From the NCBI RefSeq assembly GCF_900102075.1, contig NZ_FNAV01000012.1:124001-188000 (forward strand): a stretch of DNA of 64,000 nt, in the 5' to 3' direction. The notes beneath the pieces were generated by a model. It did no database searches, was not told where the DNA came from, and was given only the letters and a program-made list of their open reading frames with translations. This DNA comes from Salipiger thiooxidans. GTDB taxonomy: Bacteria > Pseudomonadota > Alphaproteobacteria > Rhodobacterales > Rhodobacteraceae. This document shows, one piece after another, positions 55,677 to 59,056 of this stretch (its first letter is position 1; each line of letters begins with the position of its first letter). The translations under genes were made by a program, and so were the position numbers.

Positions 55677-57551
55677 TCAGGCCACGTCGTCGCGCTTTTC
55701 CGAGAGGGCGGTGTAGAGCGCGGTCTCGAGCTCCTTCTCGAGCTCGCGGGCGCGCGTGATGTAGGCCTCGTTCTCGGAAGACGGCATGTTCGGATCCCAG
55801 AGCTTCGCCAGTTCCTGCACTGTGGTGCGGTCGTGGCGGTAGAAGGTCTCCTCGGCGATGGCGGCCTCGTAGTCGGTCATCCCGACCTCCTCCAGCACGT
55901 AGCGACCGGCGCGCAGCGAGCTGTCGAACATCTCGCGTACGATCTTGTCGGCGCCCGCCTGGTAGAGCTCGTAGACGTGGGTGCGGTCATGCGCCCGCGC
56001 TACGATGAAGACGTCGTCGCGCATCCGGCGGGCGAAGCGCACCAGCTTGGTGGTGGCCTTGGGGTCGTCGAGCGCCGCCACGATCACCTTGGCATCCTTG
56101 ATCCCCGCCGCGTGCAGCAGCTCGGGCCGGGTGGGGTCGCCGAAGAAGCCGCGGTAGCCGAAGCGCCGCATCAGCTCGATGGTCTTCATGTCGTGGTCGA
56201 TCACCACGGTGCGGAAGCCCGAGCTCTGCACCAGCCGGTTGACGATCTGCCCGAAGCGCCCGATGCCCGCGATGATGATCGGGCCCTCGGCCTCGACCTT
56301 GTCGGCGGCGGGCTGGGCGTCGCGGGTTTCCTCGACCCGGGTGGAGAGCCAGTCGAAGAGGATGAAGAGCAGCGGCGTGATCAGCATCGACAGCGCGACC
56401 ACGAGCAGCAGGCGCTGGCCCATTTCCTCGCTGAAGATGTTGAGGTTCAGCGAGAAGGAGATCAGCACGAAGCCGAATTCCCCGGCCTGCGCCAGCGACA
56501 GCGCGAACAGCCAGCGGCTGCGCGGCTTGAGGCGGAACACATGCGCGAGGCCGAAGAGGATCGCGCCCTTGAGCAGCATCATCCCCAGCGCCAGCCCGAG
56601 GAGTGTCAGCGGCTCGCGCATGAAGGCGCCGAGGTCCACGCCCGCGCCCACGGTGATGAAGAAGAGCCCCAGCAGCAAGCCCTTGAAGGGCTCGATGTCC
56701 GACTCGAGCTGGTGTCGGAACTCGGAGTTGGCAAGCACCACGCCCGCGAGGAAGGTGCCGAGCGCGGGCGAGAGGCCGACGAGCTCCATCAGGAAGGCGA
56801 TGCCCGCGACGATCAGCAGGGCCACGGCGGTGAACATCTCGGGCAGGCGGGCGGAGTTGATGTGCCGGAACAGCGGCCGGGCGCCGTAGATGCCCGCCAC
56901 GATGATCAGCGCCACCGCCGCCAGCGTGACCAGCGCCACGCCCCAGCCGGGCAGCCCGTCGACCAGCGACAGGCCGTGGTGGCCGTCGAGCTCGGTCTCG
57001 GGGCGCTGGATCGAGCCGTCGGGCGAGAGCGTCATCACCGCCTCGCCGGCGAGCAGCGGCAGCACGATCAGCATTGGGATCACCGCGATGTCCTGCGTCA
57101 GCAGCACCGAGAAGGCGGACCTGCCCCCCGAGGACTGCATCAGCCCCTTCTCGCTGAGGCTCTGCAGCACGATCGCGGTGGATGAGAGCGCGAAGATCAT
57201 CCCCGAGGCCAGCGCCGGTTTCCAGCCGAGCCCCAGCGCCATGGCCGCGGCCATCACCGCCAGCGTGGTCAGCAGGATCTGCGACCCGCCCAGCCCCACC
57301 AGCCGGTGGCGCATGTCCCACAGCGCCCTCGGCTCAAGCTCGAGCCCGATGATGAAGAGCATCATCACCACCCCGAACTCGGCGAAGTGGCGCAGGTCCT
57401 CGGTGGCGGCGACGAGGTGCAGCACCGGGCCGATCATGATCCCCGCCAGCAGGTAGCCCAGCACCGAGCCGAGACCGAGTCGCGCGGCGATCGGCACCGC
57501 GATCACCGCAGCCGCCAGATACACCGAGGCCTGGAAGAGGAATCCGTCCAT
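55677..57551 (-). CDS. Cation:proton antiporter with TrkA-N regulatory domain, KefB/KefC-like (CPA2 family)
   Basis: 624 residues from ATG 57551. The N-terminal part (1-390) has about 12 membrane helices, including SVLGYLLAGIMIGP, GVVMMLFIIGLELEPRALWDMRH and SAFSVLLTQDIAVIPMLIVLP. The loop VGLSPALGTFLAGVVLANSEFRHQLESDIEPFKGLLLGLFFITVGAGVD is diagnostic of KefB/C. The TrkA-N domain (about 410-530) starts GPIIIAGIGRFGQIVNRLVQSSG with the Rossmann GxGxxG and VVIDHDMKTIELMRRFGYRGFFGDPTRPELL. It is a potassium/proton efflux system gated by a bound nucleotide or glutathione adduct; the ligand cannot be confirmed. Confidence 0.92.
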   Translation of the reverse strand: MDGFLFQASVYLAAAVIAVPIAARLGLGSVLGYLLAGIMIGPVLHLVAATEDLRHFAEFGVVMMLFIIGLELEPRALWDMRHRLVGLGGSQILLTTLAVMAAAMALGLGWKPALASGMIFALSSTAIVLQSLSEKGLMQSSGGRSAFSVLLTQDIAVIPMLIVLPLLAGEAVMTLSPDGSIQRPETELDGHHGLSLVDGLPGWGVALVTLAAVALIIVAGIYGARPLFRHINSARLPEMFTAVALLIVAGIAFLMELVGLSPALGTFLAGVVLANSEFRHQLESDIEPFKGLLLGLFFITVGAGVDLGAFMREPLTLLGLALGMMLLKGAILFGLAHVFRLKPRSRWLFALSLAQAGEFGFVLISFSLNLNIFSEEMGQRLLLVVALSMLITPLLFILFDWLSTRVEETRDAQPAADKVEAEGPIIIAGIGRFGQIVNRLVQSSGFRTVVIDHDMKTIELMRRFGYRGFFGDPTRPELLHAAGIKDAKVIVAALDDPKATTKLVRFARRMRDDVFIVARAHDRTHVYELYQAGADKIVREMFDSSLRAGRYVLEEVGMTDYEAAIAEETFYRHDRTTVQELAKLWDPNMPSSENEAYITRARELEKELETALYTALSEKRDDVA

Positions 57552-57704
57552 GATCGTCCCGTTGAAACCAAAGTCGTCGCAATCCACCACATGATGGGCT
57601 GCTGCACGGTGGAAAGACAACAGCCGGTGCGCGGCCACCGGCGTGTTATGGCCGCAAAGCTGTAACGGACGCTTGAATGCGCGGCCGCCGCCCGCACCCC
57701 CAGC

Positions 57705-57733
57705 TTGACGTGAGGGGCTTCGCGGCGTAATGG
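57705..57733 (+). promoter_or_regulatory. Promoter of the metZ riboswitch leader
   Basis: TTGACG (57705-57710) and TAATGG (57728-57733) with a 17-nt spacer. The predicted start near 57740 coincides with the first base of riboswitch stem P1, which supports both calls. The remaining gap back to the antiporter start (57552-57704) shows no other clear element. Confidence 0.75.
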
Positions 57734-57737
57734 CCGC

Positions 57738-57794
57738 TGCGTGGCGCTTTGTTACCGGATTGCGGGCCACGTTAAACATTCCGCTAAAGAGGTC
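57738..57794 (+). ncRNA. SAM-II riboswitch aptamer in the metZ leader
   Basis: Stem P1 is CGTGGC (57740-57745) with GCCACG (57766-57771), a perfect 6-bp match. The loop contains the conserved ACCGG-ATTGC. The 3' part, GTTAAACATT then CCGCTAAAGAGG, matches the pseudoknot strand of SAM-II. I aligned it by eye with the known SAM-II aptamer: the P1 register, loop and 3' segment all correspond. SAM-II is typical of alphaproteobacterial metA/metX/metZ leaders. It represses methionine synthesis when S-adenosylmethionine is high. Confidence 0.9.
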
Positions 57795-57798
57795 AGCC

Positions 57799-57836
57799 GA
57801 AAGCCCCTTTCGCTTGACCGCGTTCGGGGCTTTTTC
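57799..57836 (+). terminator. Regulated intrinsic terminator downstream of the SAM-II aptamer
   Basis: AAAGCCCC (57800-57807) pairs with GGGGCTTT (57826-57833), 18-nt loop, in a TTTTT run (57831-57835). It lies 38 nt before metZ. The 5' arm overlaps a sequence that can pair with the aptamer 3' strand (57783-57792 with 57804-57813), an alternative antiterminator. Confidence 0.8.
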
Positions 57837-57874
57837 AATTTGCGGCGAGGGGCGCCGCACAGAGGAACGAGACG

Positions 57875-59056
57875 ATGACGACCAAGGGCAAACGCACGCA
57901 GGCGGTTCACGGCGGCACCCAGCGCAGCCAGTGGGGCGAACTGAGCGAAGCGATCTTTCTCACCCAGGGCTTTGCCTACGACAGCGCCGAGCAGGCCGAG
58001 GCGCGGTTCATCCAGGCGGGGCCCGACGAGTACATCTATGCCCGCTACGGCAACCCGACCGTGGCGATGTTCGAGAAGCGCATCGCGCTGCTTGAGGGTG
58101 CCGAGGACGCCTTTGCCACCGCCTCTGGCATGGCGGCGGTCAACGGTGCGCTGAGTTCGTGCCTCAAGGCCGGTGACCGGGTGGTCGCGGCCCGCGCGCT
58201 CTTCGGCTCGTGTCTCTACATCCTCGAGACCATCCTGCCGCGCTTCGGCGTCGAGGTGGTCTTCGTCGACGGCGCCGACCGCGCCCAGTGGGAAGAGGCG
58301 CTGGCCCCCGGCGCCCGCGCGGTGTTCTTCGAGAGCATGGCCAACCCGTCGCTCGAGATGGTCGACATCGAGGCCGTCGCGACGCTCGCCCATGCGGCCG
58401 GTGCCGTGGTGATCGTGGACAACGTGTTCTCGACCCCGGTGTTCTCGCGCGCCATCGAGCAGGGCGCCGACGTGGTGGTCTACTCGGCCACCAAGCACAT
58501 CGACGGCCAGGGCCGGGCGCTTGGCGGGGTGATCCTCGGCAGCCGCGAGTTCATCCGCGGCACGGTCGAGCCCTACCTCAAGCACACTGGCGCGGCCATG
58601 AGCCCCTTCACCGCCTGGATCATGCTCAAGGGTCTCGAGACCATGGACCTGCGGGTGCGCGCGCAGGCATCCTCGGCCCGCGCCATCGCCGAGGCGGTGA
58701 GCGAGCATCCCAAGGTCACCGCGGTGAGCTACCCGGGCCTGCCCACCCATCCGCAATACGATCTGGCGCAGCGCCAGCTCGGCGGGGCAGGGGGCACGAT
58801 GGTCTCCTTCGTGATCGAGGGCGGCAAGGAGGCGGCCTTCGCCTTCTGCAACGCGCTCGAAATCGTGCTGATCTCGAACAACCTCGGGGACGCGAAATCC
58901 ATCGCCACGCACCCGGCGACGACCACGCACCAGCGGCTCAAGCCCGAGCAACGGGCCTCGCTCGGAATCTCGGACGGGATGATCCGCCTGTCGGTGGGGA
59001 TCGAGGCGACCGAGGACCTCGTGGCGGACATTCTCGGGGCGCTCTCGGCGGTCTGA
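57875..59056 (+). CDS. metZ: O-succinylhomoserine sulfhydrylase
   Basis: 393 residues, ATG 57875 with GAGGAACGAG. PLP-dependent Cys/Met metabolism family; it makes homocysteine from O-succinyl- (or O-acetyl-)homoserine and sulfide. The PLP lysine is Lys207 in YSATKHIDGQG. Also YARYGNPTVAMFEKRIALLEGAEDAFATASGMAAVN near 57-90, and the end LSVGIEATEDLVADI. The N-terminus KTKGKRTQAVHGGTQRSQWGELSEAIFLTQGFAYDSAEQAEARF fits MetZ rather than cystathionine lyases. Its leader is a SAM-II riboswitch with a terminator, so it is repressed by S-adenosylmethionine. Confidence 0.95.
   Translation: MTTKGKRTQAVHGGTQRSQWGELSEAIFLTQGFAYDSAEQAEARFIQAGPDEYIYARYGNPTVAMFEKRIALLEGAEDAFATASGMAAVNGALSSCLKAGDRVVAARALFGSCLYILETILPRFGVEVVFVDGADRAQWEEALAPGARAVFFESMANPSLEMVDIEAVATLAHAAGAVVIVDNVFSTPVFSRAIEQGADVVVYSATKHIDGQGRALGGVILGSREFIRGTVEPYLKHTGAAMSPFTAWIMLKGLETMDLRVRAQASSARAIAEAVSEHPKVTAVSYPGLPTHPQYDLAQRQLGGAGGTMVSFVIEGGKEAAFAFCNALEIVLISNNLGDAKSIATHPATTTHQRLKPEQRASLGISDGMIRLSVGIEATEDLVADILGALSAV

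Follow-up and report, generated by a model that had tools for sequence, protein, structure and literature searches.

A SAM-II riboswitch predicted to control metZ by transcription attenuation in Salipiger thiooxidans

The metZ locus and its leader

The window analysed here is a 64,000-nucleotide stretch of the Salipiger thiooxidans contig NZ_FNAV01000012.1 (positions 124,001 to 188,000 of the forward strand), in which metZ lies on the plus strand behind a structured leader. The gene is assigned by TIGR01325 (546.9 bits, cut-off 510.05), and among the best 80 of 518 MetZ relatives the nearest named ones belong to Salipiger and Alloyangia, with 83-84% identity, in keeping with the word roseobacter used when the locus was first described. 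The nearest upstream gene is divergent: a minus-strand open reading frame at 55677-57860, its start taken as 57551, encodes a KefB/KefC-like cation:proton antiporter (TIGR00932, 239.6 against a cut-off of 238.3; under both Kef equivalog cut-offs). The terminator in the metZ leader therefore does not mark the 3' end of an adjacent plus-strand gene. The features of the locus, all on the plus strand, are as follows.

57705..57733, plus strand: predicted promoter, TTGACG 57705-57710, 17 nt, TAATGG 57728-57733 (recurrence ahead of P1 in relatives)
57731..57808, plus strand: SAM-II aptamer as delimited by its Rfam match (RF00521, SAM_alpha; 57.6 bits, E 2.6e-10)
57740..57745, plus strand: P1, 5' strand CGUGGC, partner 57766-57771 (RF00521 alignment)
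57754..57756, plus strand: P2 pseudoknot, 5' strand ACC (complementarity to GGU 57791-57793)
57766..57771, plus strand: P1, 3' strand GCCACG (RF00521 alignment)
57784..57793, plus strand: conserved CUAAAGAGGU, including the P2 3' strand GGU 57791-57793, common to the antiterminator (RF00521 alignment and folds)
57791..57819, plus strand: antiterminator, GGUCAG 57791-57796/UUGACC 57814-57819 and CGAAAG 57798-57803/CUUUCG 57807-57812 (fold)
57799..57835, plus strand: intrinsic terminator, stem 57799-57807/57826-57834 (9-bp outer stem) and UUUUU 57831-57835 (fold, -18.5 kcal/mol)
57841..57859, plus strand: second hairpin, past the terminator and ahead of the ribosome site (region folds at -12.8 kcal/mol)
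57861..57865, plus strand: AGAGG, probable ribosome-binding site of metZ, 9 nt upstream of its start codon (sequence)
57875..59056, plus strand: metZ, O-succinylhomoserine sulfhydrylase, 393 aa (open reading frame)

The original prediction had named a SAM-II aptamer and proposed a covariance-model search, which bears it out: the RF00521 match lies well over the gathering score of 36 bits, combines a P1 helix with an H-type pseudoknot P2, and stands upstream of a methionine gene. P1 is the perfect 6-bp helix that had been described, and the pseudoknot strand is likewise present, GGU 57791-57793 complementing ACC 57754-57756. By this complementarity P2 spans 3 bp with an adjoining mismatch, shorter than in the class sample. 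The 64 kb window holds no other Rfam match over its own cut-off, and the whole 5.87 Mb genome no second SAM-II copy. Beyond the window, but on its contig, the genome has a single SAM-SAH riboswitch (RF01727; C23 76142-76190, L142; 49.9 bits).

The folding program makes no pseudoknots. A plain fold of 57731-57808 returned neither P1 nor P2 and was less stable than most shuffles (z +1.4), and that of the whole leader (57738-57836) contained the terminator with P1 and P2 absent (z -0.9, 36 of 200 shuffles as stable). For 57785-57836 the corresponding values were z -1.85 and 10 of 200 shuffles. The terminator at 57799-57834, already noticed as a clear intrinsic terminator between aptamer and metZ, reaches z -3.7 at -18.5 kcal/mol, with none of 200 shuffles as stable; a rule-based terminator scan, whose stated rule covers loops of 3-8 nt, did not report it.

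Folding also returned a competing hairpin. In the segment 57787-57822, where an additional outer pair forms, it has -14.2 kcal/mol and z -3.2, and one of 200 shuffles was as stable. The bare hairpin has -12.7 kcal/mol, and -5.9 when GGU is withheld, compared with -18.4 for the terminator, and the full-length plain fold favours the terminator over the antiterminator. The hairpin takes up the GGU of the P2 strand and, from the 5' side of the terminator stem, the six bases 57799-57803 and 57807; it therefore excludes both P2 and the terminator. The leader thus has the elements of an attenuator: an intrinsic terminator before the gene, and an antiterminator that excludes both an aptamer helix and that terminator.

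The predicted promoter rests on its recurrence, TTGAC followed after 16-19 nt by TA being found ahead of P1 in 103/111 family leaders and 5/1110 shuffles, and TTGAC 15-60 nt before P1 in 104/111. A sigma-70 scan gave no site at this position, so that the -10 element TAATGG is weak by E. coli rules. Transcription would start near 57740, giving a terminated RNA of about 96 nt. Across 90 family leaders (L066 was left out), the region of the second hairpin has a mean z of -0.98, with z < -1 in 42.

Terminator and antiterminator in relatives

RF00521 matches were found in 236/295 genomes of the family (232 over the cut-off) and in 90/190 genomes across the class (78 over the cut-off; three of the 90 are of the family). 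From these sets 141 leader loci (L001-L141) were compared, comprising the window's own, 110 further family loci and 30 class loci; 140 could be anchored, and L130 was left out. The family sample is not random, consisting of the window's own leader, the 30 best-scoring matches and 80 hand-picked among the remaining matches listed. The next gene is metZ in all 110 family leaders placed (L054 fell outside this check), and 6 of the 25 class leaders placed had no downstream metZ match. Four class genomes (G327, G428, G455 and G477) each carry two weak SAM_alpha matches of 29.6-40.3 bits on a single contig, separated by 35 to about 1,280 bases, which are possibly tandem or related aptamers.

A terminator was called under a strict rule: a hairpin of -8 kcal/mol or lower running into TTTT, with at least five T in seven. 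Such a terminator follows the aptamer in 92/111 family leaders against 23/555 shuffles, and in 19/29 class leaders against 6/145 shuffles; a control stretch 250-400 nt further on, which is coding, gave 1/111 and 0/29. L066 counts among the 92, its best terminator lying inside coding sequence. Among 80 named metZ loci, the best 80 of 518, the aptamer's 3' motif is present in 80/80 and a strict terminator in 78/80; some of these loci apparently come from the same genomes as the family sample, and the two samples are therefore not independent. The strict test failed in 19/111 family leaders. A looser rule called 97/110, but was set aside in favour of the strict one because it also called 41/220 shuffles. 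Ten metZ SAM-II leaders of the family (L003, L005, L026, L034, L050, L056, L064, L077, L103 and L104) have a terminator under neither rule and may use another platform. In leaders without a terminator (9 of 13 computed), pairing of the ribosome site was 0.39-0.82, as against 0.56-0.67 with shuffled upstream sequence; these values are given no weight.

Recurrence of the antiterminator is modest evidence, because shuffled leaders and leaders with swapped halves often show the same joining of strands. When the RNA was folded as it stands before the terminator's 3' arm is made, the P2 strand joined the terminator region in 91/92 family and 18/19 class leaders with a terminator, and in 2815/4600 and 579/950 of their shuffles (at 3/3). 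At 4/4 the native count for the family was 88/92, against 2284/4600 family shuffles and 460/950 class shuffles. Leaders with swapped halves still joined in 2330/2760 (family) and 330/342 (class) cases, and the native fold was more stable than the swapped halves in 60/92 and 12/19. In the named loci, 73/78 native leaders and 818/1560 shuffles did so. The fold energies, with mean z of -1.5 in the family and -2.3 in the class, are more telling than this joining count. Covariation among the relatives' leaders, which had been put forward as a check, gave a divided answer. A P2 strand other than GGUC occurs in 23 leaders; there the strand's own partners were only weakly better than foreign ones (p 0.056), although the strand paired better than GGUCA would with the same partner (p 0.0002).

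The shortened pseudoknot and hairpin variants

Pairing in P2 was read ungapped from fixed anchors, in a single register. In family leaders with terminators the first two positions of P2 pair in 92/92 and the third in 75/92. The fourth position of the shared strand (57794 in the window) is paired in P2 in only 11/92 and in the antiterminator in 77/92, and is C in 76/92; in the class sample it pairs in 19/19 and 18/19, respectively. The fifth position is paired in P2 in 64/92 family leaders, G-U included. Over all leaders, with the groups pooled, the commonest P2 strands are UUACC/GGUCA (28), mismatched at the fourth position, and CGACC/GGUCG (15), which forms five pairs. The family P2 thus appears to span about 3 bp, and the C at position 4 appears to owe its conservation to the antiterminator rather more than to the aptamer. 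This pattern, in which leaders are counted regardless of shared descent, is the best evidence for selection on the antiterminator, and it marks 57794 as a base where the demands of the aptamer and those of the platform may be separable.

A second departure was seen at the foot of P1. Between the 3' strand of P1 and the base before GCUAAA, 23-46 nt replace the usual short linker in 13/80 named roseobacter metZ leaders. An insert of this kind occurs in at least 5/295 family genomes (by an exact pattern; one is identical to the insert of a named locus) and in at least 1/190 class genomes (by a looser pattern), all three counts being lower bounds obtained with fixed patterns. The leaders concerned are:

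L152, L153, L154, L156, L159, L163, L165, L166, L167, L172, L186, L197 and L210, at about 420-560 in each: named hairpin-variant leaders
L227-L231 (family) and L232 (another family): other hairpin-variant leaders

All 18 family inserts (17 distinct, some alike) fold to a hairpin of 5-14 bp, with a mean z of -2.6 and three between -0.5 and -1.0; their sequences vary, but they share a common position and shape. The 13 named variants all retain the strict terminator and score 22.3-32.5 bits with RF00521, under the gathering score, six of them being matched over the 5' half only. Among the 295 family genomes, G047 and G067 gave no RF00521 match, G240 is absent from the matched set, and the matches of G187 and G262 are weak. 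A literature search for variant forms of SAM-II or an added hairpin returned nothing to the point; the legend of a figure in PMC1273637 mentions optional insertions in motifs. These variants suggest that SAM-II is under-annotated and tolerant of an extra helix.

On balance we favour the view that the roseobacter-type SAM-II is a structural subtype, in which P2 has shrunk to about 3 bp, the next base of the shared strand has passed from aptamer to antiterminator, and the aptamer of some lineages has acquired a third helix, a hairpin of varied sequence at the P1 foot, so that the current Rfam model scores it under the cut-off. The window has the trimmed P2; the extra helix is absent from it.

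Proposed attenuation of metZ, rival readings and known systems

Computation supports a SAM-II riboswitch that very probably controls metZ by transcription attenuation: the gene is identified, its leader matches the aptamer model, a terminator and a hairpin competing with it follow, and all of these recur in relatives. We infer that the aptamer binds SAM, in which order the strands fold, where transcription starts and which way SAM shifts the outcome. RNA polymerase would start at the base of P1, near 57740, and make the aptamer before the rest of the leader. With SAM bound, P2 (57754-57756/57791-57793) would hold GGU, the antiterminator at 57791-57819 would lack its outer pairs, and the terminator at 57799-57834 would form, releasing an RNA of about 96 nt. 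When SAM is scarce, GGUCAG would pair with UUGACC, the hairpin at 57791-57819 would sequester the terminator's 5' arm, and the polymerase would continue into metZ. Transcriptional control by the terminator is what the original prediction had proposed; the recurrence of the terminator in 92/111 family leaders agrees with it, and the antiterminator at 57791-57819 supplies the competing structure.

Three other readings were weighed. In the metX SAM-II structure the pseudoknot hides the ribosome site, and the same could hold here, the terminator then being incidental. The AGAGG in the P2 strand resembles a ribosome site, passages of a 2024 review place SAM-II under direct occlusion (PMC10907184), and in Sinorhizobium metA a site within the aptamer is described, in part of PMC9373788, as serving a start 74 nt downstream. 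However, the aptamer's AGAGG (57788-57792) lies 83 positions upstream of the metZ ATG at 57875, the distance given when the locus was first described; metZ has its own AGAGG 9 nt before its start, and a strong terminator that recurs in relatives stands between the two. We consider occlusion highly improbable. A chance resemblance, or a decayed and functionless aptamer, can be practically dismissed: P2 has only 3 bp and an adjoining mismatch, but the score is 57.6 against 36 bits, the E value of 2.6e-10 by itself excludes chance, and matches occur in 236/295 family genomes, with metZ next in all 110 leaders placed.

It is somewhat easier to imagine, though still unlikely, that the terminator is largely independent of SAM and serves chiefly to produce a short leader RNA, the effect of SAM being exerted more through the promoter's activity or the stability of the RNA, in an incoherent dual control. 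Such a reading does not wholly exclude attenuation. It draws on the greater stability of the full-length terminator over the antiterminator, and on Sinorhizobium at high SAM, where, according to passages of PMC9373788, the short RNA and the metZ mRNA both gain in stability and the activity of the metZ promoter declines. Against it, the P2 strand is common to the hairpin that would block the terminator, and the base left unpaired in the family P2 is still paired in the antiterminator in 77/92 leaders. Attenuation by SAM remains our preferred reading.

A SAM-II aptamer and a terminator before metZ is a known type of switch in an ordinary arrangement. Surveys of 2005 and 2007 (Corbino, PMC1273637; Barrick and Breaker, PMC2258182) already noted terminators behind SAM-II, and their relevant passages describe the terminator platform as common for SAM-II in alpha-proteobacteria. 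The contrast first drawn between this leader and many other SAM-II leaders was therefore misplaced. With the SAM-II of those passages the window shares P1, the pseudoknot P2, the conserved core, a likely promoter just before P1 and a terminator before a methionine gene; it differs, in a comparison by description, in its P2 of 3 bp and a mismatch. What looks newer is the P2 of about 3 bp in the family and the next base, apparently kept for the antiterminator. The window gives a full three-strand picture of a SAM-II attenuator (P2, antiterminator and terminator); apart from this, base 57794 and the hairpin variants, the locus is a matter of routine annotation.

Our literature search brought up no recognised experimental study of SAM-II in Rhodobacteraceae, and a query combining the two returned no paper, which is no proof of absence. 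Within Rhodobacterales, Leyn (2014, PMC4239095) reports SAM_alpha in 14/15 genomes, with a sulfhydrylase gene, there named metY, as core target, in passages that carry no description of the SAM_alpha platform. In Sinorhizobium meliloti, Scheuer (2022, PMC9373788) describes, in the parts that concern metZ, a SAM-II leader RNA of about 100 nt, RZ, which rises with SAM as metZ mRNA falls; a SAM-induced terminator switch is predicted there, part of the mRNA change being due to promoter activity and part of the rise in short RNA to stabilisation. RZ was measured in that organism, whereas the leader RNA of the window is predicted and belongs to another. By these passages the two leaders have in common the gene, the riboswitch class, a predicted SAM-induced terminator and a leader RNA of about 100 nt.
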